The position numbers and the translations under genes are program-made. From contig NC_079431.1 in the NCBI RefSeq assembly GCF_026213295.1, positions 18,102,466 to 18,166,465 of the forward strand: a stretch of DNA of 64,000 bases, written 5' to 3'. This document shows positions 29,642 to 63,820 of the stretch, one piece after another; the first letter of the stretch is position 1; the number at the start of each line of letters is the position of its first letter. The notes beneath the pieces were generated by a model. That model made no database searches, had not been told where the DNA came from, and saw only the letters and a program-made list of their open reading frames with translations. Source of the DNA: Gadus chalcogrammus (lineage: Eukaryota; Chordata; Actinopteri; Gadiformes; Gadidae).

Positions 29642-29891
29642 TTACAAGTCCTACAAAAAAATAACGACTGTAATAGCAGATGTTGAAGTTGTTAAATCGT
29701 TAACTAACCATTTGTATGGAACAATCGGTTAAGGTAAGTTAAGTGCTTGAGTCTCGACACTTTAGAGAATGTCTAGCGCGCAACTTGAATAAGCCATGTG
29801 CGATATTACCCGGGCTCCAGCGCAACTTTCCTTACCAGGTGAAGCCTCAGGTAGCTAGGACCATTCATACAGGAGCAAGCAAGAACGTTAC

Positions 29892-29974
29892 CTTTTTCTG
29901 TCCTTGGTAAACGAAAAGACGGACAATACGTTTCCACTGTAAGTGCAGTTTATCATTGCACATTTACGAGGCAT
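29892..29974 (-). pseudogene. THAP zinc-finger first exon, minus-strand copy
   Basis: An 83-bp exon starts MPRKCAMINC and ends at a GTAACG donor. C5 and C10 with a 'FSF.KD' motif match the start of THAP (C2CH) DNA-binding domains. The downstream Cys-His half would lie in a later exon that I cannot find. The plus-strand sister copy is at 33984-34066. It is probably a relic of a THAP-encoding transposon rather than a host gene. Confidence 0.6.
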
Positions 29975-30654
29975 TTCTTTTTTAAACTATCTTTATTTTC
30001 GAAAAATAGACAATGACAGATTAAATGATATTGAGCGGGATATTGACTGTATTATTTAAGGTGGTCATACCGTACCTACCATGTATATAACACATTGAAC
30101 ATTGAACACAAGAAATGGAAGAAATTCCATTTATGCCCATGTACTTTCACCATACATACTATCTAAAAAATAAAAGGACCTGCAAGAAAATATAAATACA
30201 GTACTCAAAAATGGAGTTAACACGTTTCTGATTGCTCTTCAGCTTCAGATGCCGTAAGAGGGGTCTCCGGTCGTAATCAGTCGCAAGTCCGTCCCTGACC
30301 AATCAGCATTCATTAGCAGAATGCTAGCGTGTATGGCCAACAACGGCCCAAACTGTAAGAAATCGAAAGGACATAAGTACTCACTCATTTGACTTTTGAA
30401 CCATAATCTATATTGAACTTGCGGAATCTACAATAAAATTTGCGATATTTCAATGACAAGCAGGTGAAAGAGGCATAATTAGCCGTTTAGCCCCATAGAC
30501 TCCCATTCAATCTGGACTCGCCCGCGATCACCCCCAGTGGATGTCTCATGCAACTACAACCAAAATCGGTACAATGGGGCGTATAGGGAGTGCCCTCTGG
30601 CTCTTCGTAGACGGGCTCTGCTCATATTAGACATTCTCTGAGCGCTTCCCTTTT

Positions 30655-31763: not shown

Positions 31764-33983
31764 GGTTCATTTCACCAAGTATTTCACAGTCTCTTGAAGC
31801 GATAATCCAGAGTGGGTGAAACTGACACTTTTAGGGCCAATGCCTTAAGCCTACTCTGAATTGTAATTTCAACAGTTTTCAATACTGTAACATATAATCC
31901 AGGTCCTTAATCTATATTCGATGATGCTCTTCTCTGCGTATTTGATAAATCAGTAATTATAACCTTTTTGGTAATCATTTGTGTTTATCACACTGTTCAT
32001 TCATTTCACTGTTCTTCCTCTCATTCCTTTCCTTACTTCTTCTTTAGGCTACCCGTCTTTGTTTCCACTTCCCCTCTTCTGCCCCAGCCAAACAGCCAAA
32101 AAAAGTGTTTTGTTAAAATTTGGGGTGGGGGGTCTTGTAATAAAAGCTTTTTTTATTGTAACACTTGGTTCAAATCCTATTTCTTACACATGCAGCCATT
32201 TGGACACCATTCTATGATAGCTGATAACCAAGGTACACACTGTAATACTATAATCAAGAGAACATACAGGCAGTTCAAATAAAAAGAGATGGAACTTTAT
32301 TGATCTGGAAACTTCATAAATATGTAGGATTGCTCCATATAATACCATCGTAACATAGTAAACGTATGTAGGCCTAGAAAAATACAGTGCAATGTTATTG
32401 CTTAAGAAACAGATTCCTTCCAACTAACTATTTACGAAAAATGCAATCAATAATTTATATAAAAGTAAATGTTTACATATCGACCAGCAACGAAGTTGGA
32501 GTAGCCTACCCAAATAATGAATTGTATACACCAACATTGTTAACTGTCATACATAGCTAACCATAACCCTGTCATACATTGCTAAACAAGCAAATGAAAA
32601 TGAAATACCTACCAACGCAACTGAAATGTTAATATTAGACAATTGACAATATTATGAAAATTACGTAGGTCTCCCATAATCATTCAGGTAATCAATACGT
32701 CCGTGCCTGTTGCAGCTATTTCAATGATATGTGTGTTATATATCCGTGTTCAACGCCATTCATGTTAAGTAAAAGGAAAAATCTCAGACTTCGGAAGTTA
32801 ATGGAGTTAATGGAAGTTAATTCGGAATTTAATTCGGAATTTAATTTAATTCGGAAGTTAATGGAGCCGTGCACTTCGAAATAGGTCCATAGCAAGGAGC
32901 CGTTTGTTTCAGTACGACTCCTTTCAGCTGCCCACCCAGCAAAAAATAAATACATAAAACTGCTAATAAAACGCTTGAGGAGGCGTTTTGAAAAGAAAAA
33001 ACTTATATTTTTTTAGAACATGGTAGAAATATAATTATGAGCCTTTGATTGATATCCAGACATTTTTTGCGGAGACACAATCCTGTTCCCCACTTGTATT
33101 GGAGTGGACGGCAATATCTACTTCTGGGCCACATGAAATGATGGACCCCCGTCCACAGCCATCTTAAACAGCTGCAATACCAGGCTTGGCCTCTGAGCAC
33201 TGGTGGATTGCGGAAGTATGCACTGCTCCTGGGAGCCTGGACAGGACGCGTCCTTGCTAGTCGCGTCCTATGGAGATGAGACTAGAGTGCTAGCTCGAGT
33301 GCTTCCTAGCGTTTGTAACGTTCAGACTTTGGAACGACTTGGTAGTGTGGAAGCGCTTCCGCTTCCGCTTTTTAATACTGCGTATCCGCTTGTAAACACA
33401 TGAATAAAACGCTTATGAATAAAACATGGCAGCAATCAAGCTGATCGATATTTATTTGACTTTTGTCTGTTATGAATGCGGTCATGTCTCCTTCGCATGG
33501 AGCCTCTTTGGGGAAGTCACAAAAGCTTTGTTGCGGTTGATCGAATCGTCTTAATTCATGCATCACATTTACAGTACGGTTGATTACTATTATACAGGGG
33601 GAAAAAGACAAAGAAAGATGATAAACATGTATTTATTTGGATATATCATTTAACGGATCTGATTCATTCATTCATATATGCCTACAATCTACCAGTGTTT
33701 TTGAACACATAAGTATATCATATAAAATACAATTATATACGTTCATTCAAAATTACAAACATTGCAAATGATCGGTTGTGCATTAATTTTACAACATAGT
33801 GGCACTATCCCTTCCACCGGTAAACAAATGTTTGTGCGCCACCCTAAGGCGCACAAAAGCCTCCGTTTGCTGCATGGGCAGACCCTAAAAAAAACCGATT
33901 CAACACAAACATAAATAGGTATACATAAATAATGCAATCTTGTGAGCGAGTAGTTTAAAAGTTTAAAATAGTTTAAAAAAGAA
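31764..33983. other. Repeat-derived intergenic DNA, nothing assignable
   Basis: No gene is seen. It contains a short direct-repeat tract near 32795-32870 ('TTCGGAAGTTAATGGAGTTA' and 'AATTCGGAATTTAATT' words) and AT-rich DNA. The open frames have no recognisable domains. Confidence 0.5.
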
Positions 33984-34066
33984 ATGCCTCGTAAATGTGC
34001 AATGATAAACTGCACTAACAGTGGAAACGGATTGTCCGTCTTTTCGTTTCCCAAGGACAGAAAAAG
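33984..34066 (+). pseudogene. THAP zinc-finger first exon, plus-strand copy
   Basis: M-P-R-K-C at the start, C5 and C10, then 'LSVFSFPKDRK' and a GTAACG donor: a canonical THAP N-terminus. The flanks (33960-34217) are an inverted copy of 29738-29992. No downstream exon carrying the rest of the C2CH finger was recognised within the next kilobases. The better-preserved 'FPKD' makes this the less damaged copy. Confidence 0.65.
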
Positions 34067-34360
34067 GTAACGTTCTTGCTTGCTCCTGTATGAATGGTCC
34101 TAGGCTACCTGAGGCTTCACCTGGTAAGGAACGTTGCGCTGGAGCCCGGGTAATATCGCACATGGCGTATTCAAGTTGCGCGCAAGACATTCTCTAAAGC
34201 ATCGAGACTCAAGCACTTAAAGGCATATTGTACGGGATCCAGTAATATGCACTTTTTAATATGTTGTTGAAATTGGTTTTTACATCCTGACAGCAATAAA
34301 TAACTTATGGGCAATGAAAAAGAAGCGAAAAAATAACGAATTCTGTATCTGCTATAAACC

Positions 34361-41316: not shown

Positions 41317-41865
41317 AGGGCCCTATTTTAACGGTCTGAAACGCAAGTGAGGAGCGCCAAGCGCAAGTAGCTTTATGGGCGGTTCTATGGCAATGTCGCT
41401 AGTTTACCGGCGCGAAAAATGACTCTTGCGCCCGGCGCAAATCTAAAAAGGGTTGGTCTGAAGTAGCCTAATTACCCGTAGGTGTGGTTTGGGCATAACG
41501 TGCCATAAACCAATGAGAGTGCCAACTCCCATCCCCTTTAAGAGCCATGAGCGAATTTGAACCTGACGAGTTGATATTTTATCAGCGCGTCTGCAGTCTC
41601 CGATGAGACAGATGCACATGAATTTCAAACTTCAAATGGCTCCGTTTATGGCCAAATAATATGGCTTAATTCACGCATGGAATAAGGTTTTCTTCCACAA
41701 CTTAAAATACTGAGTCCTATTTAATGTGGTTCTATTTAATGATATTTAATTATATGCGCAATACATTATAAACATTGTTTCTTATTAGTATTGTATGCAT
41801 TATCGGGTAACCCTTCCTTTTACAGTCCCCTAATTACTAGGTATTTACCCGGTACATACATGGTA

Positions 41866-42150
41866 AATTATAGTGTATTACTGGGTAATTACCACTGGTA
41901 ATAAGAAGGTAAATACAGAGGTAGTTACCCGGTAAATAAATGGTAAATCGTAGTGTATTACTGGGTAATTACCACTGGTAATAAGAAGGTAAATACAGAG
42001 GTAGTTACCCGGTAAATACATGGTAAATCATAGTGTATTACTGGGTAATTACCACTCGTAATAAGAAGGTAAATACAGAGGAATTATCCGGTAAATTATA
42101 GTGTATTACTGTGTAATTACCACTGGTAATAAGAAGGTAAATACAGAGGA
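41866..42150. repeat. Left subterminal repeats of the foldback element (4 units, ~78 bp)
   Basis: Each unit carries 'TAGTGTATTACTGGGTAATT', 'ACCACTGGTAATAAGAAGGT' and 'AAATACAGAG' or close variants. The last unit is shortened. The mirror array is at about 47830-48120. Confidence 0.9.
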
Positions 42151-42518
42151 ATTACAGCTGATGTACCAAGTAAAACCTCCACTATTACCCATCAACTCAA
42201 CTAAGTAGCGTGTAGTTGTAACTGATTTAGGTTGGTAATAACTCCGATATTGTGTACTTCCTCGGAAATTAGGCAAGCAATTCTTAGAAACACCTATTAT
42301 CCAAGGTTTATGTCGGTAACAGCCCAAATTTAATGATGTATCTAGAAATTAGCATAGTACTTTCCTATAAAATACTTTTTCTTAGTTATTATTCATAGCT
42401 ACACCCATTTAGAAAGGGTTTATTCAGTTTACCACTATGGAATTACTTACCTGGTAACAACCTCTGCAGGAAGTTTTTCTCTAGTGTCATGGTACATCTT
42501 CTTAAATACTGGGTACAA

Positions 42519-43800
42519 AGCCGTTTGTTTCCATGGTATTACCAGGTTCTTACCATATCATTTATAATAGATACATTCCATTGTCCATGCAGTCAACACA
42601 AACTTGTACCATGTACGTTCTGCGACGTTACCAAGTAAAACACGACAATTTACCCAGTAAGTAAGCTGAAACTGTACTGTAAAAGGAAGCCTCGTTTGTT
42701 TCCATGGTATTACCAGGTTCTTACCATATAATTTGTAATACATTATTCCCTTTTCCATGCAGTCAACACAAACTTGTACCATGTACGTTCTGCGACGTTA
42801 CCAAGTAAAACACGACAATTTACCCAGTAATTAAGCTGAAACTGTACTGTAAAAGGAAGCCTTGTTTGTTTCCATGGTATTACCAGGTTCTTACCATATA
42901 ATTTGTAATACATTATTCCCTTTTCCATGCAGTCAACCCAAACTTGTACCATGTACGTTCTGCGAAGTTACCAAGTAAAACACGACAATTTACCCAGTAA
43001 GTAAGCTGAAACTGTACTGTAAAAGGAAGCCTCGTTTGTTTCCATGGTATTACCAGGTTCTTACCATATAATTTGTAATACATTATTCCCTTTTCCATGC
43101 AGTCAACACAAACTTGTACCATGTACGTTCTGCGACGTTACCAAGTAAAACATTACAATTTACCCAGTAATTAAGCTGAAACTGTACTGTAAAAGGAAGC
43201 CTTGTTTGTTTCCATGGTATTACCAGGTTCTTACCATATAATTTGTAATACATTATTCCCTTTTCCATGCAGTCAACAAACTTGTACCATGTATGTTCTG
43301 CGACGTTACCAAGTAAAACACGACAATTTACCCAGTAAGTAAGCTGAAACTGTACTGTAAAAGGAAGCCTCGTTTGTTTCCATGGTATTACCAGGTTCTT
43401 ACCATATAATTTGTAATACATTATTCCCTTTTCCATGCAGTCAACACAAACTTGTACCATGTACGTTCTGCGACGTTACCAAGTAAAACACGACAATTTA
43501 CCCAGTAATTAAGCTGAAACTGTACTGTAAAAGGAAGCCTCGTTTGTTTCCATGGTATTACCAGGTTCTTACCATATAATTTGTAATACATTATTCCCTT
43601 TTCCATGCAGTCAACACAAACTTGTACCATGTACGTTCTGCGACGTTACCAAGTAAAACACGACAATTTACCCAGTAATTAAGCTGAAACTGTACTGTAA
43701 AAGGAAGCCTCGTTTGTTTCCATGGTATTACCAGGCTCTTACCATACAAGTTGTAACTGGTTATTCCCTTTTCCATGCAATCAACACAAACCATATATGT
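42519..43800. repeat. Left 170-bp tandem array of the foldback element (~7.5 units)
   Basis: 'CCATGGTATTACCAGG' recurs eight times at about 170-bp spacing (near 42531, 42701, 42871, 43041, 43211, 43379, 43549, 43719), and each unit also has 'TACGTTCTGCGACGTTACCA'. The repeated 69-residue frame here is a by-product: 170 is not a multiple of 3, so each frame dies one unit on. Confidence 0.95.
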
Positions 43801-44967
43801 TCTGCAACATCGTTCACCAGTAGTTAAGCACTTTAATTGTTGTTATAAAACCCCAAACCACTGTTGATGAAAGACATATTAAAATTAAACAAAATCAAAG
43901 GCTTATCTTTCAAACAATGCATATCTCACAAACAGGCACTGAACACTGAAGAAATCGGACAAACAAAAGAGCCGTCCACATCAACTCAATTTAAATGTTA
44001 CTGATGGTGTTTTTATAAAACACATGACAGTGTTATGGCAAGTGACCACAAGGAAGACTGCTTCAACCTCTACAATTTGAATAAGTGGTGAATGCCATGC
44101 AGCTATCTGCCTATGGGAGCATCTTCGTGGTCATTCGCAAACCAATGAGTCCACTCGATGAATGAGAGATGACTCTTTAGTGTCTTCTCTGTGAGGTATC
44201 CCTGCAGTCTCCACATCTGGGATTTGAAGGCTGACCAAGACCTGACCAGGTACCTCCAAATCTCCCCTTCAAGAATCAGAAGACAAGAAAATAAACATTA
44301 GGACTGTCAATTAATGAACATTTCTAGAACATGTAGAAGTCAAGGATTATTTTGTTTATCAGTTAAGAAAGGATGCTGGTCCTCTGGCCATTGTGTTTGG
44401 TCATATTGAAAAGAGAAAAAGGCATAGCCATAAATACAGTTAATAGGACGGGAGGGGACAGGCAGTTAGCTCCGGTTAGCCCTTTAGCATCGAGCTAGCG
44501 GAGCTTCTGTCATTCAAATAACTCGGACATGTTGTTTAAAACCTATAGCACCCAATTTATTAAAATATCCGGATTTAATCGGGCTCTCTCCCATAAGTAC
44601 AGTTAATAGGACGGGAAGAGACAGGCTCTGTTAGCCCCGGTTAGCGCGATGCTAAAGAGCAGCTCTACCGGAGCATGCCACCTCAACAGGTGCAAGTTAG
44701 CCTCCGGTTTGATATTCGCCGGATATTCGGTTTACCACCCAATCGGATTCATCAACATAAGTGCAATACATTACGGGCTTAGTATGTTGAGGACGGTTTA
44801 GGACACCGTATCGCGGAAAATCACAAACACATGTTGTCGCCATCGATGTCTGTGCAACAACGTCATTTACGTTCTCTGGCTGCTACCTGTTTTAGGGACC
44901 GTCAACAAGTTACACTCACCGACTGGTGGCAGAGACGTTACCATGGAATTGTTTCTGGAAATAAATC

Positions 44968-45189
44968 ATATAAAATAACATAAAAATCACAAAAAAATAC
45001 ATTTTGTCACCTGATTGTAGTATTAGTTGCCAATGGTGGGCTGCTACTTACTGCAGGTAACTTTGCTAATATATTGCATTATTGTTAAACGGGATGCAAT
45101 TAATAATTTCAAATATAGTTTGGTCGATTTTTGTCGAATATTAAACTATTAACTGCATTATGATTAACTATATTGCAATATATTTGTGT
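44968..45189. other. Central loop of the giant palindrome
   Basis: AT-rich unique spacer between the two arms. The arms meet it at 'TACCATGGAATTGTTTC' (left) and 'CCTGAAACAATTCCATGGTA' (right). No gene. Confidence 0.85.
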
Positions 45190-46346
45190 GATTCATTTCC
45201 TGAAACAATTCCATGGTAACGTCTCTGCCAACAGTCGGTGAGTGTAATTTGTTGACGGTCCCTAAAGCAGGTAGCAGCCAGAACGTAAATGACGTTGTTG
45301 CACAGACATTGATGGCGACAACATGTGTTTGTGATTTTTCGCGATACGGTGTCCTAAACCGTCCTCAACATACTAAGCCCGTAATGTATAGCACTTATGT
45401 TGATGAATCCGATTGGGTGGTAAACCGAATATCAAACCGGAGGCTAACTTGCACCTGTTGAGGTGGCATGCTCCGGTAGAGCTGCTCTTTAGCATCGCGC
45501 TAACTGGGGCTAACAGAGCCTGTCTCTTCCCGTCCTATTAACTGTACTTATGGGAGAGAGCCCGATTAAATCCGGATATTTTAATAAATTGGGTGTTATA
45601 GGTTTTAGACAACATGTCCGAGTTATTTGAATGACAGAAGCTCCGCTAGCTCGATGCTAAAGGGCTAACCGGAGCTAACGGCCTGTCCCCTCCCGTCCTA
45701 TTAACTGTATTTATGGCTATGCCTTTTTCTCTTTTCAATATGACCAAACACAATGGCCAGAGGACCAGCATCCTTTCTTAACTGATAAACAAAATAATCC
45801 TTGACTTCTACATGTTCTAGAAATGTTCATTAATTGACAGTCCTAATGTTTATTTTCTTGTCTTCTGATTCTTGAAGGGGAGATTTGGAGGTACCTGGTC
45901 AGGTCTTGGTCAGCCTTCAAATCCCAGATGTGGAGACTGCAGGGATACCTCACAGAGAAGACACTAAAGAGTCATCTCTCATTCATCGAGTGGACTCATT
46001 GGTTTGCGAATGACCACGAAGATGCTCCCATAGGCAGATTGCTGCATGGCATTCACCACTTATTCAAATTGTAGAGGTTGAAGCAGTCTTCCTTGTGGTC
46101 ACTTGCCATAACACTGTCATGTGTTTTATGAAAACACCATCAGTAACATCTAAATTGAGTTGATGTGGACGGCTCTTCTTTTTGCCAATTTCTTCAGTGT
46201 TCAGTGCCTGTTTGTGAGATATGCATTTGTTTGAAAGATAAGCCCTTGATTTTGTTTAATTTTAATATGTCTTTCATCAACAGTGGTTTGGGGTTTTATA
46301 ATAACAATTAAAGTGCTTAACTACTGGTGAACGATGTTGCAGAACA

Positions 46347-47452
46347 TATATGGTTTGTGTTGATTGCATGGAAAAGGGAATAACCAGTTACAATTTATAT
46401 GGTAAGAGCCTGGTAATACCATGGAAACAAACGAGGCTTCCTTTTACAGTACAGTTTCAGCTTAATTACTGGGTAAATTGTCGTGTTTTACTTGGTAACG
46501 TCGCAGAACGTACATGGTACAAGTTTGTGTTGACTGCATGGAAAAGGGAATAATGTATTACAAATTATATGGTAAGAACCTGGTAATACCATGGAAACAA
46601 ACAAGGCTTCCTTTTACAGTACAGTTTCAGCTTAATTACTGGGTAAATTGTCGTGTTTTACTTGGTAACGTCGCAGAACGTACATGGTACAAGTTTGTGT
46701 TGACTGCATGGAAAAGGGAATTATGTATTACAAATTATATGGTTAGAACCTGGTAATACCATGGAAACAAACAAGGCTTCCTTTTACAGTACAGTTTCAG
46801 CTTAATTACTGGGTAAATTGGTGTGTTTTACTTGGTAACGTCGCAGAACGTACATGGTACAAGTTTGTGTTGACTGCATGGAAAAGGGAATAATGTATTA
46901 CAAATTATATGGTAAGAACCTGGTAATACCATGGAAACAAACAAGGCTTCCTTTTACAGTACAGTTTCAGCTTAATTACTGGGTAAATTGTCGTGTTTTA
47001 CTTGGTAACGTCGCAGAACGTACATGGTACAAGTTTGTGTTGACTGCATGGAAAAGGGAATTATGTATTACAAATTATATGGTAAGAACCTGGTAATACC
47101 ATGGAAACAAACGAGGCTTCCTTTTACAGTACAGTTTCAGCTTAATTACTGGATAAATTGGTGTGTTTTACTTGGTAACGTTGCAGAACGTACATGGTAC
47201 AAGTTTGTGTTGACTGCATGGAAAAGGGAATAATGTATTACAAATTATATGGTAAGAACCTGGTAATACCATGGAAACAAACGAGGCTTCCTTTTACAGT
47301 ACAGTTTCAGCTTAATTACTGGGTAAATTGTCGTGTTTTACTTGGTAACGTCGCAGAACGTACATGGTACAAGTTTGTGTTGACTGCATGGACAATGGAA
47401 TGTATCTATTATAAATGATATGGTAAGAACCTGGTAATACCATGGAAACAAA
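46347..47452. repeat. Right 170-bp tandem array of the foldback element (~6.5 units)
   Basis: Mirror image of the left array. 'CCTGGTAATACCATGG' recurs seven times at about 170-bp spacing, one fewer than on the left. Some units share private variants (for example 'AAATTGGTGTGTTTTA' in alternating units), which suggests unequal exchange within the arm. Confidence 0.95.
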
Positions 47453-47829
47453 CGGCTTCGTACCCAGTATTTAAGAAGATGTACCATGACACTAGAGGAA
47501 AACTTCCTGCAGAGGTTGTTACCAGGTAAGTAATTCCATAGTGGTAAATTGAATAAACCCTTTCTAAATGGGTGTAGCTATGAATAATAACTAAGAAAAA
47601 GTATTTTATTGGAAAGTACTATGCTAATTTCTAGATAGTACATCATTAAATTTGGGCTGTTACCAACATAAACCTTGGATAATAGGTTTTTCTAAGAATT
47701 GGTTGCCTAATTTCCTAGGAAGTGCACAATATCAGAGTTATTACCAACCTAAAACAGTTACAACTACACGCTACTTAGTTGAGTTGATGGGTAATAGTGG
47801 AGGTTTTACTTGGTACATCAGCTGTAATT

Positions 47830-48120
47830 CCTCTGTATTTACCTTCTTATTACCAGTGGTAATTACACAGTAATACACTATAATTTACCGGATAATTCCT
47901 CTGTGTTTACCTTCTTATTACCAGTGGTAATTACCCAGTAATACACTATGATTTACCATGTATTTACCGGGTAACTACCTCTGTATTTACCTTCTTATTA
48001 CCAGTGGTAATTACCCAGTAATACACTATGATTTACCATGTATTTAACGGGTAACTACCTCTGTATTTACCTTCTTAATACCAATGGTAATTACCCAGTA
48101 ATACACTATAATTTACCATG
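47830..48120. repeat. Right subterminal repeats of the foldback element (4 units, ~78 bp)
   Basis: Complement of the left subterminal set: 'CAGTAATACACTA' recurs four times, followed by the terminal repeat ending at 48174. Confidence 0.9.
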
Positions 48121-48911
48121 CATGTACCGGGTAAATACCTAGTAATTAGGGGACTGTAAAAGGAAGGGTTACCCATTATCGTTGTCGACTTGTGTTCCTA
48201 ATATGCATGTGCGATGTGCCCCCCCGTTAATATACATTGCCATGGACTGTATTACGCGTTACGTGTTTAGTTTGCGTGTGTTTAAACAGATTGACGCAAA
48301 CACACGTGCCCGCGCGCGTGTGGGTGTGTTACACATACACACACGCGCGCCCGCATTCATTCATTCTTTTTAACACTCACTCGCGGTAAAACAATGTTTT
48401 CTCACGATCAAATACTCATCAATCCTAAAAGTTAGGGGCATGTACACAATGTCTTTGTCAAGCAAATATGTGTTTGCTGTACAGTGTTTGCAGATGCACT
48501 GATTTAAAAGTATAACTTATTACCGCTGTATCAGCTGTTCATTCCCAAATAATTAACCAAGAATGTGTGGCTAGGTAGATGAGAGAAGCAAAGTGTATGC
48601 GCGAGGTGCACAAGCAACATTATGCATGCGCCCTTAAAATAGCATCTGAAGAACGCGCCACTTACTTTAAACCACGTATTTCCAGGTTTGTCGCGCAAGT
48701 GGTTTCTGAAGCGTCAAAATAACACCAAGGAACGTTTGCGCCAGAATACGCCTCCTCCTTTCGCCGAGCCGCCCCTTGGGGCGCAAGATCAATCCCTAAT
48801 TGACCGACGCGTGGCGCAGGAGGGAAAAGAACGCTCTGCGCCAGTTGCAAACTAGCAACGACACATGCGCCAGTGATTAAGTCAATTGCGCCGGATGCAA
48901 GATAGGGCCCT

Positions 48912-50063: not shown

Positions 50064-50096
50064 AGACAGGGAAATAAGAAGGCAGAAAACCCAAAA

Positions 50097-50807
50097 GTGA
50101 AGTATAAGCAAAAAGGGGGTCTACGGAATGATGCCAGTCAACAATACTACAGATGTGGCTCTGCTGATCACCTTGCTAACGACCAGTCAATCCCAGCTAA
50201 AGCAGGTAAATGCAAAACATGTGGGAAGATAGGCCACTATTCCAGAGTGTGCAAATCCTCTGCTAAGTCAGTCATTCAAGTGAGTTTGCCTGAAGTGACT
50301 GTCCTCAATGTTGGCAAGAAGACTGATGTGCAAGGAAAACTAATTGGAACCTTCACTCTGGCTACATCACCTACAAGTACACATACAAGTGACATGTTAG
50401 TTGACACAGGATCTGGTGTTTCAATACTACCTGAAAAACTGTACAGAGAAAACTTAAGCACAAGTAAATTAAGCCCACCTACAGTAAAACTGTTGACATA
50501 CTCAAGACAGAACCTAAAAGTATTTGGACGTCTTAAAGCGACAGTGACATACCAACAGAGGACTGCAACTCGATTTTTCCACATTGTGAAGTCTGGTACA
50601 CCTCTCATTGGGATGGATCTATGTGAAAACCTCAACATAGAGATTAAAGGAGGAAAGTTGATGGAACCAACAGTGGACTGTGCCATGCTTTCACAGTCAC
50701 CTAGGCCCCCTGAAACTACATCCTCTTTGGACATTGGACATGCCAAAGCCATTGTGCATAAAGTGCAGATACGCACAGATGTTAAACTAATGCAACAAAA
50801 ACTCTGA
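50097..50807 (+). pseudogene. Nucleocapsid zinc knuckle and protease remnant
   Basis: One open frame of 236 residues. An intact CCHC knuckle reads 'CKTCGKIGHYSRVC', preceded by a degenerate one. The aspartic protease motif 'MLVDTGSGVSILP' (catalytic D in DTG) follows, and 'PLIGMDL' resembles the protease C-terminal hydrophobic motif. It ends at a stop at 50805-50807. It was presumably once continuous with the polymerase that follows. Confidence 0.88.
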
Positions 50808-50812
50808 CGCCT

Positions 50813-52100
50813 GCCGCTTTCTGTGTGTGATATCGTCACTGCAGAGCTGAATGAACTGGAAAAGCAGGGAATCATAGAGGGAGTTGATTAATCTGAATGG
50901 GTTTCCCCTATTGTAGTCACTAGGAGGAAGAACGGAAAAATCTGCATGGGTGTGGATATGAGAGAACCTAACAAGGCAGTGGTCCCCGACAGCCACCCAT
51001 TACCACTGATTGAGGACGTACTAGCTGAGCTGCGTGGGTCAAAGATGTACTCTACCTTGGATCTGAAAAGCGCCTACCATCAACTGGAACTGCATGAGGA
51101 GAGCAGAGTCTGACTGCTTTCATTACACATGAAGGATGTACAGATACCACAGAGTTCCTTATGGACTAAGTTCAGCCCCTGCAGCATTCCAGAAAATGAT
51201 GACAAAAATACTCAGTGGGTTAAAGGGGGTGAAGTCTTACCTAGATGATGTCATAATCTATGGGCCCTCACAGGAAGAACATGACACTAACCTGAAAGCT
51301 GTAATGAAGCGTATCCAGGAAGCAGGTCTGCAGCTCAACAAAGAAAAATGCCTCTTCAGTCAGACTACACTGACATTCCTGGGCCACAGACTCTCACCTG
51401 AAGGCTTACAGCCGAGCAATGGCCATGTGACTGCAATCCTGAGTGCGCCTGCTCCTACTGATGCAGCCAACCTCCATTCATTCCTGGGCTTAAGTGCATG
51501 GTATAGCAAATTCATACCTAACTACGCCAGCCTGGTCGAGTCAATGAGAGCTCTGTTGCGGAAGAATACGACATTCAAGGGGAATGATGCAGCACAAGAG
51601 AGCTTTGATCAAGTCAAAAACATGGTGGTCAATAGCCCAGCACTAAAACTGTTTGACCCAAACAAACCAACAGTGGTCTCAACTGACGCTTCTGATTACG
51701 GACTTGGAGCTGTTTTGACACAGGTGAATGAGGCCGGAGTGGAAGACACAATCACTTTCGCCTCTCGCAGTTTATCAGATGCTGAAAGAAAGTACTCGAT
51801 AGTTGAAAAAGAGGCTGTCGCATGCGTCTGGGCTGCTGAAAAGTGGTGTGTGTGTGGCTCTGGGGAGGGAAGTTCCTGTTACGCACCGATCGTCAAGCTC
51901 TAACTACACTCCTGACTAACAAGGGAGATAATTGCGCTGGACTTCGGGTAGCCCGGTGGTCTGCTTGCCTAATGGAGTTTGATTATGAGGTCCAGTACAG
52001 AGCTGGAACACTGAACAACATTGCCGACTGTTTATCCAGACTACCACTTCCTGCGACAGACATGGATTATACTGAGACCGTGGAGTCAATCGCAACAATT
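50813..52100 (+). pseudogene. Reverse transcriptase and RNase H remnant
   Basis: 'MREPNKAVVPDSHPLPLIED' and 'YSTLDLKSAYHQLEL' (catalytic Asp), then, in another frame, 'YRVPYGLSSAPAAFQ'-like palm residues (read as 'HRVPYGLSSAPAAF') and the active site 'YLDDVIIYG' (about 51238). RNase H shows 'VSTDASDYGLGAVLTQ' and 'YSIVEKEAVACVWA'. Breaks: an in-frame stop near 50890, a frameshift near 51110 and a frameshift near 51850. Confidence 0.92.
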
Positions 52101-53603: not shown

Positions 53604-53987
53604 TGTTACGACCCCTCCCTTTCGGCAGCTGATTACTTCCTGCAGGAGTTGGCTGAAAGGGAGGGTCGTTAGGGCAAGTTGCTCACACCTGGCTAGGCCT
53701 CTACCCAAGGTGATATAAGCCAGCCTGGTCTCATTGTCTCTCTCTCTCTCCTAGGCTCCACGCTGCTACAGGTTCTTGGTTCTTTTTGTTGGCTTCCTTT
53801 TACACTCAACAGCCGCACACACGTCTCACTCATCCATGCACTACATTCACCACTGATGCCACTACTCTCCACACCTCATGCTATTGGTAACTAAGATTGT
53901 TTAAGTGATAAATAAACCTTATCATTTATTACTTGCAACCTGACTTGTCTCCCCTCCTTGTCACATACGCTGAGCCAGTTTGTGACA
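53604..53987 (+). repeat. LTR (forward) with tRNA-Pro-type primer site
   Basis: TGTTACGACC at the start and GTGACA at the end bound a 384-bp LTR-like sequence with 'AATAAACC' near its 3' part. Two bases later comes TGGGGGCTCGTCCGGGAT (53990-54007), an 18-nt match to the proline-tRNA primer-binding site used by many gammaretrovirus-like and other LTR elements. An inverted copy of the LTR lies at 54903-55284. Confidence 0.8.
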
Positions 53988-54007: not shown

Positions 54008-54772
54008 CAATTTACTAGGATTAAAATAGCTTGAATTTTGACTACTGGTAAATTGGCCAGTAGTCACTACTTGTTGTTGGACATAGCTGATTGTGCTGTG
54101 GTTATCATCAACTGTTCTGGGAGGGGAAATGTCAGGTTGTTGTCAGTGCTGGTTATTTCTTGTAGGAATTTCAAGGAGAGGTATTTGGTCCATTTCTGTT
54201 TGTGGTGAGGGTGATTAGTTTTGACTGGGGCTTTGCGGTTAGCCCTACCTGGGGTATGTTGGTATCTGTTTGAGCAGGAGTTTCTACCCCCTGTTAGGTT
54301 TGGTAGCGGGTTCCTCTAGGGGACTCGTGGTGATCAATTTAGGTGGCGGCGAAGGTGGGTAGAGCTATTAGCTCGGGAGCACCTCTAGGGTTGGGAGAGG
54401 GTTGCCAGTCCTCTGGTTGCCTTCTTCACACCGCTGGTTTCGCGTGCATAAGTACCCCCCACCATTAACTGCACGAAGACTAGGGCAAGTTAGTTAGCTA
54501 GTTTTAATGGTTGTAGTTAACATCAGGATAGGGGTGGGGCTCCTGTTCACCTATTACCTCAGGTTTTGGGTTTTCGGCGTGTCTCAGTCAAGAGTTGTAA
54601 CTTGTTAGGCTGATTTGTTTTTGAGGATGGTGGAGCCAGAGTGTTTGGAGTTGCCAGATTCTTTGCTGGTTGACCAGTTAGCGGGTTCTCAGGCTGAGCT
54701 AGTGGCAGACCAGATGGCTGATTCCTCTTTAATGGAGCTGTTTGACCAAGTTGTGCCAGCATCAGAGGTGAG
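54008..54772 (+). pseudogene. Leader and truncated gag start of an LTR element
   Basis: The G/T-rich leader after the primer site runs to an ATG at 54627. A short frame ('MVEPECLELPDSLL') of about 50 codons stops near 54780. The rest of gag and all of pol/env are absent; the sequence passes directly into a U1 snRNA fragment. A leader plus gag start is inferred from position; no domain was recognised. Confidence 0.45.
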
Positions 54773-54896
54773 GGATACTTGATCAAGAAGGTGGTTCACC
54801 CATAGCGAGGCTCAGCCATTGCACTGAGGCTGTTGCTGACCCGTGCGAATTCCCCAAATGTGGGAATCTCGATTGCATAATTTCTGGTAGTGGGGG
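54773..54896 (+). pseudogene. U1 snRNA pseudogene fragment fused into LTR element
   Basis: Matches U1 snRNA from about nt 20 to nt 143: 'GAAGGTGGTT', 'GCGAGGCTCAGCCATTGCAC', 'TTCCCCAAATGTGGGAA', 'GATTGCATAATTT' and 'TGGTAGTGGGGG'. The 5' end (5'-splice-site recognition sequence) and the 3' stem-loop are missing. It passes straight into the inverted LTR through shared 'GTGGG/CCCAC' bases. Not expected to work as an RNA. Confidence 0.88.
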
Positions 54897-54902
54897 CCCA
54901 CT

Positions 54903-55284
54903 TGTCACAAACTGGCTCAGCGTATGTGACAAGGAGGGGAGACAAGTCAGGTTGCAAGTAATAAATGATAAAGGTTTATTTATCACTTAAACAATCTTAG
55001 TTACCAATAGCATGAGGTGTGGAGAGTAGTGGCATCAGTGGTGAATGTAGTGCATGGATGAGTGAGACGTGTGTGCGGCTGTTGAGTGTAAAAGGAAGCC
55101 AACAAAAAGAACCAAGAACCTGTAGCAGCGTGGAGCCTAGGAGAGAGAGAGAGACAATGAGACCAGGCTGGCTTATATCACCTTGGGTAGAGGCCTAGCC
55201 AGGTGTGAGCAACTTGCCCTAACGACCCTCCCTTTCAGCCAACTCCTGCAGGAAGTAATCAGCTGCCGAAAGGGAGGGGTCGTA
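54903..55284 (-). repeat. LTR (inverted copy)
   Basis: Reverse complement of 53604-53987 with few differences, beginning TGTCACAAACTGG and ending GGTCGTA. The outermost three bases of the LTR are lost. Opposed LTR orientation is not normal for an LTR retrotransposon. Confidence 0.9.
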
Positions 55285-56116: not shown

Positions 56117-59100
56117 ATGGACGACGCATATCCTTATACACTGATCGTAGAGCTCGAAGAAAACAACGTTCCCAGACTGAAAAACAAACTGGTAAAATAT
56201 TTCCAGAGTAAAAGACGGGCCGGCGGTGGTGAATGTCACATTCAATATGAAGACAGAAGCAGGACCGCGGTGCTGCGTTTCAGAAGGGAGGAAGGTGATC
56301 ATGCTTAACTCAAGCTTTTACTCTGTAGTGATTATTGAAATTATTTTAGCGTAGGCTATGCTTCATTTTGACGACGTTTCAAGATAATAAGAATGGTTTC
56401 TTCAACAACGTAGAGAAGAAACCATTCATAACATGACGTCACCTGGGGTTGGTTTTCTCATCCAGATAGGGCGAGGGTTCTGGCTCAAGAGACTCATGTG
56501 ATCGTCTTGGAAGAAGGGGTGATAAAGGTCTCCGTTTATTTGGCTGACAGAAGCTCTGAGAGAGAGGTAAGTAGACGAAAGACTCATCCAACGCAGCACT
56601 ACAGGCCATTTTTTTTACATCGTCACATAGCAATACCGATATGCCGTTGTAACACTTATAGGCTACCCCAAAAAAGTTACTTTCCCTATCGTTAATGTAT
56701 TTTGGAAGCTTAGCCATGACCACATTGATGTTTTTTGTGCACTGCACTGCACAAATCAAATTTTTAATTTAGTATTCCATCAACAAATGTGTGTGATATG
56801 AGGCTGCCTTTAGCAATACTGGGGCCAGTGTGTCTGTGGGATGAACGGATGATGGAGCAGGAGAAAACTAGCAAAAAGTCTAAATAAATACTTTGCTTGA
56901 CGGTTATTTGAACGGACATTATTTTTGAAGTTATTCAACAGCAACAGGGATGGGTAGAATCATGTGTAAAATAAACATTTGTTTGTATTTTTTGGTATTA
57001 TGTTGTTGTGAACTATATTCTGTCAGCAGTTGACAACCGCTACCAACAACCAACAAAGCAACTCGGATAGTCGTGCATCTGAGGAGGAGACCCAGGTGAA
57101 GGCGGTGAGCAGGGTAGAGCAGACAGAAGAGTCGGCTTTGGGTTCCACCTCCGCTGTCTTAGAGAACGTTCCCCAGGACATGAGCAAGGACATCATGGAG
57201 ATGTTGGTGGAAAACGTCTACTTCAAGTCACAGATAACCACCCAACCTGATTTCAGTTTGGAGATGCTCTCCGACATATGCTCCGCTGTGATTACTTTCT
57301 CAAGTACAAAAGGTTGTTTTATGATCTTATAATTACTAAATATTCATGTTATATATTAACGGTTATCATCACTCACTTGATATTCGATGCATTCTCTTCT
57401 CTAACAGAAAACAATGAGTTCATTACAAGCTGCCAGACAAACAGGACCTTCTTGAACAAGAAATTAACTGTCAGAGCTCTGGAAGTCACATCCCAAGTCA
57501 GAGTTGAGAATTTGTCAAACATCAGTGAAGATGTCCTCCTGCTGTACTTTGAGAATGAAGGTTGGGAGGTTGAACAGGTCACCCCCGATGAAGAGGAACA
57601 GTCTGCTGTCATCTCCTTCAAAATGGACACAGGTAAAGTCTTCATTAGTAGAGCATAGTTATTTTAAAGCGGTGCTGCATGTGTGCATGGAGGTTGCAGT
57701 GGCAAGCAGTGTCTAGCCCACACCCTCTAACACACACAAACTAGCTATCAGCCGTGTCCGATATCGGCTAAACATGGGGAGATGCTTTATAATATTGAAA
57801 ATATGCAACGCACTCAAGCAACACACTTAAGCAACCCACAAAAACAACGCTTATGCTGCTGTGGGAGTTTTCTTTACAAATTAAAATTTCGATCTATTAT
57901 ATTGAAATCCAGCTGCACAACTGTACTCATTGTTGTTTGAAAATGAAATTATTGGAAGAGAAACAAATGTGGTAATAATAATGTTTTAACACAAACAATG
58001 TTTGTAAAGGAAAAAACATGGAAATGATTTTCGATACAAATGTGTAATTTAAGAGGCCTGAGAATGCGCCGCATTCAAAGCGTATGTGGACCGCTCGCCA
58101 CTGTTCGATTGTAGTATTATAAATCGTTAGTATTGTTAATCTTCTTTATTTTTTATCAAGTACATTTAAATGTGAATAATGATTTTATCTCATTAGCTGT
58201 TCAAGGGATAATCAAGAAGGAACATGTGATCGGGATAACACCGGTCAAGGCTTTTCCATTTTACGACTCCTTGGGAACGGTTCTTTATGGCAAAGTCCGA
58301 CCCAAACCAAAACTACCTGCTACCTTCTCTAAAAGCATACATTCCCCACTCTTGACGTACCTCCATCAGCAGCAGGAAGCAGCAGAGATGGTTTGTGGTC
58401 ACTTGTCAGCACTCTTCTGCAAGGTAGACCTCCTACCCTCATCTGTGAGTTTCAGCCCTCTTCCAGCACTGCTCGAGCAGAAAGATGTTACACCCAAAGA
58501 CATCAAACAGTGGAAACAATCAGTGGAGCAGGCCTTCACACAGGTCTTGTCCAGGTTCAAAACTCTGAGGCTTCAGCCTCCACCATCAACATGGGAAGAG
58601 TCTGAAGCGCATATCAGAGAGATTGTTTTAGACAAGACCATGGAAGTCATCCCTGAGAAAGCTGAAGGTGCATTGTCAGTGGTCGGCCTTGTGGACGAGG
58701 TGACCAGACTAGAGCCCACGTTGAATGAGCTCATGACCAGGATTGAGAAAAGGGTGCAGAGGGAGAATTCAAGTATTACACAAGGATTTGAGATATCCGA
58801 AGAAATGTTTCACCTGCTTTGTCAGGACGGTCTTGCTGACCGGTTCAAAGATAATTACTCAGACCTAGAAATGACATATGAAGACAAATTGATCTTAAAA
58901 GGTTTAAGTCATGAGGTTTCAGATGCAGCTATTGTGGTAATGGCACAAGTGCTTGCAGTACAAAAAAACCTCTTAGATGGACCTACAGCTGAGGAGGATA
59001 ACCAGATTGAGGCGGCTAGCAGGGAAGAGCAGAGAGAACAGCCGGCTTTGGGTTCTACCTCAGCTGTATTAGAGAACGTTCCCCAGGACATGAGCAAGGA

Positions 59101-62100
59101 GTTCATGGAGATGTTGGTGGAAAACATCCACAAAAACTACAAGTCCCCGATGACCAGCCAACCTGAATTCAGTTTGGAGATAATCTCTGACACATGCTCC
59201 GCTGTGGTTACTTTCTCAAGTGCAAAAGGTGTTTTTGTGTTTTTAAAATTACTAAATATTCTTTATGACTCAGTTAATGATCTGCCTTTGTACTGCAAGT
59301 TTAAACTAGAATTTAAATGTATTCTCTATACTTCTCTAACAGAAAATAATGAGTTCATTACAAGCTGCGAGAAAAACAAGATGTTCCTGAACAAGAAATT
59401 AACTGTCAGACCTCTGGAAGTCACATCCCAGCTTAAAGTTGAGGATGTGTCCAACATCAGTGAAGATGTCCTCCTGTTTTACTTTGAGAATGAAGGTTGG
59501 AAGGTTGAACAGTTCACACCAAATGAAGAGGAGCAGTCTGCTGTCATCTCCTTCAAAATGGATACAGGTATTTTATTTGTGAGGACGTTCTTTTTAAGGT
59601 GGCGATAGTGGATGATCATTTTGAGAGACTGGCGGATGGATTGGGTCTGGCGTCCTTTCGGAAGTACACCATCTGTTTTGCTTAACACGCCATGGAGATG
59701 CTAATGGGCTTATTGAGTGTTACCCTATTATCTTGTTTGGTAGCATGGTGTTTGTTTCTCTTGGGGTCATTTAAAGTTGTTCCCTACTTAGGATCTTTTA
59801 GTTAAGCAATTACAGCTACTGTGGATTTCCAGAATGTGATGTGGCAGGTGTTTTTCATCGTTTTTGTAGCAGGTGATATAAAGAAATCACAGGGTTGTGA
59901 TAAATAATTAGAATATGAAAAAGCCTACCTACTTTATTAGGTCACACACTCACTGCAGTTGCCTTATTTATGTAGGTACTCAGGAGGATTGCAATGCACT
60001 GCTGTGCCCACGTTGTGGAAAGAGAACGTTCATGATAGATATTTATCAAGTAAATAGAAATAAAGGCATAGACCTAATAACTTCATTGGATGTTTTTATA
60101 GCTATATTTTACGTATATTTAAAACAACATTCACCAGCATGTTGTATTTCTATAATTTTTTTCACATAATACAATATATGCAACAGCCCAAAATGGCGGT
60201 ATCAATAAGACTGGCCACATCTAATACAGTTACCCTAAATTCTTATTTAATTTGTTTATTTAATCCCATTTTATCTTTTTTCTCAATAGATGTTGAAGGG
60301 ATAATCAAGAGAAAACATCAAATTGGGAAGACATATCTCAAAGTTTTCCCATTTTACAACTCCTTGGGAACGGCTCTTTATGGCAAAGAAAGACCAATAC
60401 TTAACGTTTCTAAATGTATGAGAAATACCAGAAAAAATTACCAGCCCCTTCCAAGGCCCATCTATCAGATTCAAACATCTGATGGCATTGATTTAGCTGT
60501 TTCTAAAGCTGATCTATGTAGCTACGCAGTAGATGCAGTGGTTATCAATTCGAATAAGAACTTGAAACTTGATGGAGGTACTGGAGAAGCAATTGTGGCG
60601 GCTGCTGGTTCTTCCTTGCAGGAAGAATGTGATAAAATCCATCTCCGGAGAGGGCAGCTGAAGCCAGGAGACAGTGTAATTACTGGTGCAGGGGGTCGGC
60701 TTCAATGCAAAAAAGTGATCCATGCGGTCACACCCCAGTATGATCCATCTAACCACTTGAAGACAGTGGGGCAGCTGAGAAGAGCTGTTAAAGGAAGTCT
60801 AGAACTTGCTGAGATGAATGGCTGTCAATCTCTGGCCATCTCTGCCATCAGTGCCAACATGGGGTTCCCAATAGACCTGTGTGCCGACACCATCATCAAA
60901 GTGTTGAAGGAACATTGTGAGGACCAGTTTGGTGAAAACAACCTGAAGCAGATCCATTTTGTTAGCACAGATGACCATGCCGTTCATGCTTTGGAGACAT
61001 CAGTGAGACACAAGTTTGGAAACCAAGGAATTATTTATTCTCAGCAGAGTGTTACTGACAGACAGAGCTTAAAATCAATGGAAGGGTTTATTCAAGCTGC
61101 TAGGGTAATTGTTTATTTTCTATGTATATATCCCAAAAGCCTATTTATACAAGAGTTTATTCATTTGGAAACCAAGGAATAATTTATTTCCAACAGCGTG
61201 TTCCCAAGCAATCTCCAATTCTGGAAAAGGACGAAAACACTCTCCGGCTACTGGACACCAATGAGGAATTGAGCATTGAATTGGTGGAAGGGAATATTCA
61301 AGATGCTACGGTAATAATTTATTTTCTATCCTAATTTATACTTGAATTCTTTAATCTTCAATCAAAAGTTCAATATCCTGTCAGAAATAAACTATAATAA
61401 TTAGATATAATACTGGGAATAAAATAAAAAAACATTTGTTATTCATATATTCAGACCGAGGGGATTGTGAATGTTGTCGGTAGAGAGCTTGATCTGAGAA
61501 GGGGAGCCGTTTCCAAGGCTATCCTTGAAGCAGCAGGACCCAACCTTCAGCTGTTGGTCAGTGAACATTGCCAAACTGGGAACTTTGGTGATGTCATTGT
61601 TACAAGTGCATGTCAACTGAGAAGCAACATGCTTTTCCATGCAGTGGTTCCTCCTTGGGGCAACAAGGGCAACGCTTGCAAGGTAACACATTCATTATTA
61701 TTATATTTCCAGATCCAGCGCTCGTTATGTGTGCATTTTTATTTTCAGCAGATGTTTATTTACCTAGAAATTAAAAGGCATCTGTGCTATATTCCACAGA
61801 TAATGAGAGAGATTGTTGAAGACTGCTTGAACAAGGCAGAGAACCGTGGTCTTAACTCCATATCCTTCCCTGCAATCGGCACTGGAAAACTGGGCTTTCC
61901 CAAAGACCTTGCAGCATCTGTAATGATAGAAGAAGTCTTGGTGTTTAAGAAGCAGTCGATGCACTTGAAGAAGGTTGCCATCGTTCTCCATCCAAAAGAC
62001 AGACAGACAATCCAGGTAGAGACCGGCATATTTCATATAGAAGTACACACATACATAAACCAAATGTGGCTTGTGTTATTGACAGTGGATGTTGATGTGT

Positions 62101-62155
62101 TCACCTGCAGGTTTTTAATCAAGAATTAGAGAAACGTCTCTCGACAGGAAGTTAA
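56117..62155 (+). CDS. PARP14-like RRM/macro-domain protein lacking an ART domain
   Basis: Eleven exons, all in phase: 56117-56294, 56466-56566, 57030-57312, 57408-57632, 58197-59228, 59343-59567, 60290-61104, 61197-61310, 61455-61682, 61800-62015 and 62111-62155 (1,153 residues, stop TAA). The N-terminus 'YPYTLIVELEENNVPRLKNK' with 'SKRRAGGGECHIQY' is the first RRM-like module of PARP14-type proteins. Two further RRM-like modules ('LENVPQDMSK...NKKLTVR', residues ~120-262 and ~565-681) are each followed by 'GIIK..H.IG' and 'FPFY.SLGT.LYG'. Macro domain 1 lies at about 742-925 ('AVDAVVINSNKNLKLDGG') and macro domain 2 at about 975-1153 ('PAIGTGKLGFPKDLA'). PARP14 proper continues with WWE and ADP-ribosyltransferase domains; none is found before 64 kb. 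Likely role: ADP-ribose binding or reading in the interferon/antiviral response (inference). It may be a separate paralogue, a truncated gene or a PARP9-like reader. Confidence 0.88.
56391..56427. repeat. Hairpin in intron 1 of the parp14-like gene
   Basis: GAATGGTTTCTTC (56391-56403) and GAAGAAACCATTC (56415-56427) are perfect complements around an 11-nt loop. The right arm belongs to the repeat also seen at 55620 and 62700. Confidence 0.75.
57633..58196. other. Intron 4 of the parp14-like gene
   Basis: No exon or repeat terminus was recognised. AT-rich. The acceptor at its end is TTATCTCATTAG. Confidence 0.6.
59568..60289. other. Intron 6 of the parp14-like gene
   Basis: No exon is needed here: the flanking exons join in phase. 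It contains a short open frame with no recognised domain. Acceptor TTTTCTCAATAG at the end. Confidence 0.6.
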
Positions 62156-63385: not shown

Positions 63386-63797
63386 GAGAATAATTGATTG
63401 AATTTATATAGTGCTTTTCTAGACACTCAAAGACACTTTGAAGGGGGGACGTCACCAACCACCACCAGTGTGTGGCACCCACTTTGGTAATGCACGGCAG
63501 CCAATCTGCACCAGAAAGCTCACCACACACCAGCTTGAGGTGAAGAGTGAGGGAATTAATGAGTCAGCCAATTGTACAGGAGGATGATTAGGGGGCCGGA
63601 TTGAATGAGCCTGGTTGGACCGGGGAAGCCCCTACTCTTTGCGATAAGTGCCCTGGGATCTTTTATGACCTCAGTGAGTCAGGACCTCGGTTTTACATCA
63701 CCTCTGAAGGATGGCATCCAAGTACTAACCAGGCCCGACCATGCTTAGCTTCCGAGATCAGACGAGATCAGGCGTCTCCATGGTGGTAAGGCCGTTA
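63386..63797 (-). mobile_element. 5S-rRNA-derived SINE (SINE3-like)
   Basis: On the minus strand the first ~80 bases (63795-63715) match 5S rRNA: 'GCCTGATCTCGTCTGATCTC', 'GGAAGCTAAGCA' and 'TCGGGCCTGGTTAGTACTTG'. These include the internal RNA polymerase III promoter region. A body shared with many fish repeats follows ('CACTGAGGTCATAAAAGATC', 'CCTCCTGTACAATTGGCTGA'), and the tail reads 'AAAAGCACTATATAAATTCA'. A 5S-derived head with an LINE-like tail is the SINE3 design. Confidence 0.85.
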
Positions 63798-63820
63798 AAG
63801 GCATTTAATGGCCTTACCAC
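63783..63820. repeat. 38-bp near-perfect palindrome at the SINE head
   Basis: GTGGTAAGGCC and GGCCTTACCAC enclose 'GTTAAAGGCATTTAAT', itself nearly self-complementary. The left half is the 5S-like start of the SINE. The remainder to 64000 shows nothing recognisable. Confidence 0.8.

Follow-up and report, generated by a model that had tools for sequence, protein, structure and literature searches.

What kind of element forms an almost complete palindrome of 6.4 kb, and can it have spread in that form? The question is raised by positions 41806-48173 of the window, a stretch of 64,000 nucleotides from Gadus chalcogrammus (NC_079431.1, positions 18,102,466 to 18,166,465; contig C20 in the 630-Mb assembly that we searched). 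A first-pass annotation had read this segment as a foldback transposon with mirrored arrays and no recognised transposase. Copies with the same ends elsewhere in the genome, together with empty sites, back this reading, and we consider it highly probable that the element is a non-autonomous foldback DNA transposon.

In the alignment of 41805-44974 with the reverse complement of 45183-48174, 2928 of 3174 columns match; there are 60 mismatches (35 transitions and 25 transversions) and 6 gaps. The two arms (3.17 and 2.99 kb) are 98.0% identical when gaps are left out. Their differences are scattered along the arm (94.6-100% identity per 200-bp bin), and the sole large gap, 168 bp, amounts to about one array unit. 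Tandem arrays of ~80 bp (subterminal) and 170 bp (unit lengths 168-171 bp) are mirrored between the arms. These results confirm the arrangement first described, inverted arms with mirrored subterminal repeats and 170-bp arrays round a short loop, which measures 208 bp; the exact complementarity of the termini holds as well, over the 25 bp given below. The limits, set at 41805..48174 with a 6-bp target duplication, required correction. The base before GGTAACCC varies among copies, and the reading of the site as 6 bp plus a variable spacer was dropped because across copies that base completes an 8-bp repeat on both sides. As the base adjoining GGTAACCC belongs to the 8-bp duplication, CATTATCG, the element itself comprises 41806-48173. 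Its features are as follows.

41806-48173: whole element; terminal inverted repeat (TIR) GGTAACCCTTCCTTTTACAG
41798..41805, unstranded: left target-site duplication (TSD), 8 bp, CATTATCG, from end comparison
41806..41830, plus strand: left terminus, GGTAACCCTTCCTTTTACAGTCCCC, from end comparison between copies
41839..42149, plus strand: left subterminal array, units of ~80 bp, rich in GGTAA/TTACC
42522..43791, plus strand: left 170-bp array; 7.5 units, of which the innermost has diverged, with the inverted terminal motif CTGTAAAAGGAAG in 7 copies
43809..44974, plus strand: left inner arm, sequence outside the arrays
44106..44297, minus strand: left-arm mirror of the last-exon-like open reading frame (ORF), with a premature stop
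44975..45182, unstranded: loop, 208 bp
45183..46337, minus strand: right inner arm, mirroring the left
45213..45237, plus strand: putative exon-like piece (by eye), beginning with ATG and followed by a GTGAGT splice-donor-like site
45880..46074, plus strand: decayed ORF resembling a last exon (putative), EIWRYLVRSWSAFKSQ...HHLFKL stop
46353..47453, minus strand: right 170-bp array, 6.5 units, mirroring the left; 6 motif copies
47828..48140, minus strand: right subterminal array, mirroring the left
48149..48173, minus strand: right terminus, exactly complementary to the left, from end comparison
48174..48181, unstranded: right TSD, 8 bp, CATTATCG, from end comparison

A 17-bp word occurs twice in the inner arm, 163 bp apart (44437 and 44600, mirrored at 45528 and 45691); by eye, it belongs to a diverged direct repeat.

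Copies, target sites and history of the palindrome

The first-pass annotation had called for a genome search for further copies sharing these ends, and such copies are abundant. The 21-bp end occurs in the genome, at one mismatch or fewer, 210 times in forward and 223 times in reverse orientation (433 in all), against 0 for the reversed control. An exact 21-bp match on a viral contig (L001, 1757-1777) was taken as chance; it lies within a methyltransferase-like ORF (a DNA methyltransferase by eye). For end pairing we used 193 of the 433 ends (83 exact G-type, 100 of 172 T-type and 10 others) and joined convergent neighbours less than 30 kb apart. This gave 48 pairs with a median spacing of 6,243 bp, 42 of them within 2.8-7.7 kb.

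A query of 696 bp from the left arm found 596 candidates, of which the best 40 were scored; these were 97-100% identical to the query. We retrieved 20 copies from the best 40, with 10 kb each, and three shorter ones, a sample biased to window-like copies. Both ends were present in 18 of the 20, and 16 of these 18 carry the loop between inverted arms at 93.0-99.5% identity (in L022 the match spans 191 of the 208 bases); L024 and L025 are without it. The general plan is that of a foldback: very long inverted arms with tandem repeats and a short middle. The number of array units per arm varies from 4 to 13 among the 17 loop-bearing copies including the window element, while in L024 just one side contains units, and L025 has two and three. 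L038, whose matching pieces are 91.6-95.3% identical to the window element, is an older copy. Foldbacks with a longer centre were also found, at C2:15685635, C3:2020295, C7:5508992, C10:8800273 and C13:22273133, their exon copies lying 2.5-2.67 kb apart as against the usual ~1.62 kb; the one at C10:8800273 (L035) has ~1 kb of additional central sequence without a large ORF.

Target sites were compared in 22 two-ended copies, namely the window element, the 18 above and the three shorter ones. A perfect 8-bp TSD flanks 15 of them, and three more (L015, L016 and L038) match at 7 of 8 positions; L015 and L016 share flanks and are probably one duplicated locus. The search for empty sites was successful in two cases, both paralogous. 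The joined flanks of L010 match an uninterrupted repeat in L012 at 81%, with a single 8-mer 2 bases off the TSD, and those of L019 match an uninterrupted repeat in L027 at 89%, with a single 8-mer 1 base off. The insertion site in the window, compared with a related repeat in L019, showed 70% identity with gaps at the insertion point and gave no clean empty site. Dispersed copies with target duplications, together with these empty sites, are what a mobile element leaves.

Did each copy fold back anew, or did the palindrome spread as such? When the 17 loop-bearing copies were aligned by the loop, 21 columns separated the two arms with few exceptions (a column was counted as diagnostic when its majority reached at least 70% in each arm; one 2-bp gap was counted as two columns). 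Median Kimura two-parameter distances, used because the means were inflated by inserts, were 1.47% and 2.04% for the same arm in different copies (A-A and B-B, respectively), 2.91% for the two arms within one copy and 3.10% for unlike arms in different copies. The arm-specific variants being common to different insertions, the finished palindrome, judged from these alignments, is older than the spread of these copies and was copied as a unit. The exceptions to the diagnostic columns would fit arm-to-arm conversion. Within the arrays of the window element, the outermost and innermost units correspond between the arms (1 and 3 differences), and the inner units do not pair one to one; inner units differ by 1.96% within an arm and by 1.95-2.22% between copies. 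Besides such conversion between the arms, the arrays may have undergone unequal exchange.

The possibility of an assembly artefact, and the palindrome around one copy

That the palindrome is an assembly artefact, or a repeated inverted duplication of host DNA, finds some support in one copy, L022. A palindrome of 25.7 kb (L022/L030/L031, C11:1751080-1776765) is centred on this copy, whose flanks are mirrored over ~9.26 kb at 98.4% identity, with 22 substitutions and 99 small gaps. Differences made up mostly of small indels are expected of assembly errors. At the window locus, the arms differ by scattered substitutions (60 positions), many of them common to several copies; the palindrome ends at a duplicated target site, copies of the same plan lie elsewhere, the same terminal sequence recurs in the 22 two-ended copies, and 18 of these have a TSD matching at 7 or 8 of 8 positions. 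On this sequence evidence an assembly artefact appears unlikely at the window locus, and we give hardly any credence to artefact or repeated host duplication as an explanation of the palindrome.

The C11 palindrome itself admits of two explanations. One is that a Polinton-like copy came to be mirrored through the hairpin of the foldback while it was being replicated; the other is that the assembly folded back at L022. A direct repeat of 6 bp, CACCGA, bounds the whole 25.7 kb and speaks for a genuine insertion; the outer parts are rich in indels (only 16 of the 121 flank differences lie within 5 kb of the element), which speaks for an error. One flank contains an ORF with an integrase core, and further ORFs there resemble Polinton/Maverick proteins; a capsid-like ORF in the flank had no Pfam match over the cut-off.

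Arm sequences, the missing transposase and neighbouring features

How, then, might a foldback transposon without a recognised transposase of its own move? Two kinds of short motif recur in its arms. The left arm contains GGTAA/TTACC 62 times, compared with 11.7 +- 3.1 in dinucleotide shuffles; its outer 349 bp contain it 24 times, compared with 3.5 +- 1.7, and in the inner arm it is at chance level (2 versus 2.1). The terminal 13-mer CTTCCTTTTACAG recurs in inverted orientation in the 170-bp units, with 15 occurrences in the element and 0 elsewhere in the window; across 17 copies it is exact in 207 of 215 non-last units, its columns being barely more conserved than the rest of the unit (0.996 versus 0.986). 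Both motifs are probable, though putative, transposase-binding sites, of the kind shown for the THAP domain of Galileo (PMC3688188). A transposase made elsewhere in the genome would recognise the GGTAACCCTTCC ends, very likely aided by the repeated arm sites, GGTAA/TTACC and CTTCCTTTTACAG, which it may bind. Acting in trans, it would cut out the whole 6.4-kb palindrome and insert it with an 8-bp TSD, in a cut-and-paste manner.

Several observations weigh against this account of the element. Four of the 22 two-ended copies are without a matching 8-bp TSD (6/8 in L012, 5/8 in L025, 1/8 in L040 and 0/8 in L022), and 2 of the 20 retrieved copies show a single end within their 10 kb; for one of them, L018, a listed end lies 17.7 kb away. 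The motif frequency could reflect only the tandem arrays, as tandem copying multiplies any word. Furthermore, the 193 of 433 ends listed yielded no relative that combines such ends with a transposase. An autonomous partner sharing the ends, for which the first-pass annotation had proposed a search, was likewise missing from the copies inspected: the long or odd ones (L014, L018, L019, L028 and L032-L040) hold other inserts (ORFs resembling those of long interspersed nuclear elements, long terminal repeat elements and Harbinger, by eye) or only further foldback, and no transposase of this element was recognised in them by eye.

The inner arms do contain gene-like pieces. The ORF there has 65 codons and a stop, and is preceded in other copies by a splice-acceptor-like TTACAG. 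This acceptor-bearing form has 103 + 91 matches in the genome at 3 mismatches or fewer; it was rejected as a marker of coding copies, since among 100 matches listed of the 103 + 91 it also marks ordinary foldbacks. The frame is intact in 31 of 40 arm copies, and a protein search with the ORF returned 11 relatives (four from Boreogadus saida, three from Arctogadus glacialis and four unnamed, two of the latter 77-80% identical). These relatives carry the annotation of unnamed proteins in other gadids, in keeping with a gadid host. Both findings would suit a working gene of 65-75 amino acids in the arms. The distinct changes among arm copies (21 non-synonymous, 8 synonymous and 1 stop) are near the neutral expectation of 0.67/0.27/0.06 and, by this count, look neutral, and the ORF had neither a Pfam match over the cut-off nor a PDB match; a working gene is therefore highly improbable. 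The pieces suggest instead that the arms may have taken up part of a coding element, for instance by internal deletion of that element together with an inverted duplication that would have drawn gene pieces into the arms. A comparable case is Galileo, in which a 69-bp ORF end was drawn into the TIR (PMC4168063).

The superfamily of the missing partner has to be judged from the ends and the TSD. An 8-bp TSD is compatible with hAT, Merlin and Zisupton, and P elements likewise make 8-bp duplications. Ends of hAT elements are of the CAG/TAG type, and their duplications follow a T2/A7 pattern in Ac-type elements and have TA in the middle in Buster-type elements. The perfect TSDs of the foldback favour a purine at position 2 and a pyrimidine at position 7 (25/30) and have a central TA at positions 4-5 in 6 of 15, a symmetric tendency (nRnTAnYn) that was noticed post hoc and that, in its TA, recalls the Buster type. 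This tendency and the length of the TSD speak for a hAT transposon; T2/A7 is rare (5/30), the ends GGTAACCC are unlike the CAG/TAG type, and their GG start fits Merlin better than hAT. A further point for hAT is the label that the 167-169-bp repeat families of Atlantic cod have received (PMC12368964); a further point against it is the TIR length of 10-25 bp stated for hAT elements (PMC3942097). We place hAT first among the candidate superfamilies, with an even chance of being right. That the partner is Merlin-like, or belongs to P, Mutator-like or Zisupton elements, we rate a little short of even. Merlin elements have a conserved terminal GG and 8/9-bp TSDs (PMC8101967), and the TIR here begins with GG and is flanked by 8 bp. 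The genome contains 72 matches to the Merlin DDE domain, 0 of which lie inside the 48 listed end pairs (193 of 433 ends covered); the match at C85:26178 is found 9 kb inward of a left end without a listed mate, and may be there by chance. In favour of P, the anatomy of Galileo is the closest. Two further candidates were rejected: Dada, with 6-7-bp duplications, insertion into small-RNA genes and no TIR in Dada-U6/Dada-U1 (PMC3706591), as against an 8-bp TSD and a long TIR here, and IS481EU, which is found in parabasalids and whose duplications measure ~4, ~15 or ~25 bp.

Elsewhere in the window, a perfect 314-bp inverted repeat (53607-53920 and 54971-55284, spacer 1,050 bp) has no direct repeat of 4-11 bp immediately outside it and encloses a U1-like match (54757-54902, 73 bits). 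A 150-bp inverted repeat (29855-30004 and 33954-34103) is 94% complementary over a distance of 3.9 kb. Retrotransposon ORFs (zinc knuckle; reverse transcriptase with RNase H) lie at 50064-51903, ORFs with KH, RRM and macro domains of a PARP14-like gene at 58115-62129, and a 5S ribosomal RNA-like match at 63690-63799 on the minus strand (56 bits).

Comparison with known elements

Is the element new? In Atlantic cod, gadMor-hAT-1784 is described as a non-autonomous, hAT-derived miniature inverted-repeat transposable element with two ~600-bp TIRs of 167-169-bp units and no ORF, and gadMor-hAT-8043 as having tandem units of ~167 bp (PMC12368964). The first of these resembles the window element in its inverted tandem units (168-171 bp here) and in lacking a consensus ORF (only decayed ORF pieces here). 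Further likenesses are a consensus called palindromic, high genomic coverage, a gadid host and insertions that reach a mean of up to 5,838 bp (2 on chromosome 7). The cod repeats agree with the window element in the length of their units, the inverted arrangement, the group of hosts and the absence of a transposase. They are probably the array part of the same family, compared here by description and not by letters. In contrast to the window element, the gadMor-hAT-1784 consensus has ~600-bp TIRs and a short interior. The 6-kb unit, the GGTAACCC ends, the 8-bp TSDs, the loop and the arm ORF were not met in the part of the cod account available, and the term 'TSD' is absent from its main text. 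In searches of the open-licence literature we found no description of the full unit or its ends; 273 papers contain one of three 10-12-mers of the ends, and among the 15 of them listed no title suggests a transposon paper. The first-pass statement that such elements are little described in fish holds only in part, the array part having probably been described already.

Both cod repeats lie at breakpoints of derived inversions on chromosomes 1 and 7 (PMC12368964, 2025). We raise, as a tentative and rather doubtful proposal, that complete 6-kb palindromes seed gadid rearrangements, that the repeats at the breakpoints on cod chromosomes 1 and 7 are foldback remains, and that a foldback inserted into other DNA can convert it into a far larger palindrome, as at C11:1751080-1776765. 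The element is abundant, and earlier accounts probably covered no more than its repeats; the full unit, with ends, TSD, arms and loop, is now available. Its true ends allow one to ask whether intact foldbacks or fragments occupy the inversion breakpoints, and to test at the level of single bases whether recombination between elements produced the cod inversions, in the way described for Galileo of Drosophila.

In kind the element is ordinary, and its use lies in its full anatomy and in its bearing on the cod inversions: other foldbacks whose arms contain tandem repeats are well known, among them Tetris, Galileo and Muta1. Tetris of Drosophila virilis (PMC4079207) is likewise a non-autonomous foldback with layered arms, with tandem repeats of ~220 bp that share a stretch with the outer arm and vary in unit number. 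It differs in its 8-10-bp duplications, its only three structurally complete copies and its Drosophila host, and it is a source of long satellite arrays. Muta1 (PMC5225508) has foldback-type TIRs, subterminal tandem repeats and 8- or 9-bp duplications, but is an active Mutator-like element with a transposase and 12-bp repeat units. Galileo, of the P superfamily, has long arms with tandem repeats of ~140 bp (PMC4168063, PMC3688188). One D. willistoni copy without a transposase segment has TIRs of 4,246/4,680 bp, and, as the window arms may have done, the Galileo TIR recruited a final ORF piece (PMC4168063). Unlike the window element, Galileo has copies with transposase segments and a Drosophila host, and the likeness is drawn from descriptions. 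Beside these systems, the G. chalcogrammus element offers a vertebrate case for asking what leads foldback arms to accumulate tandem repeats with the terminal motif in them.

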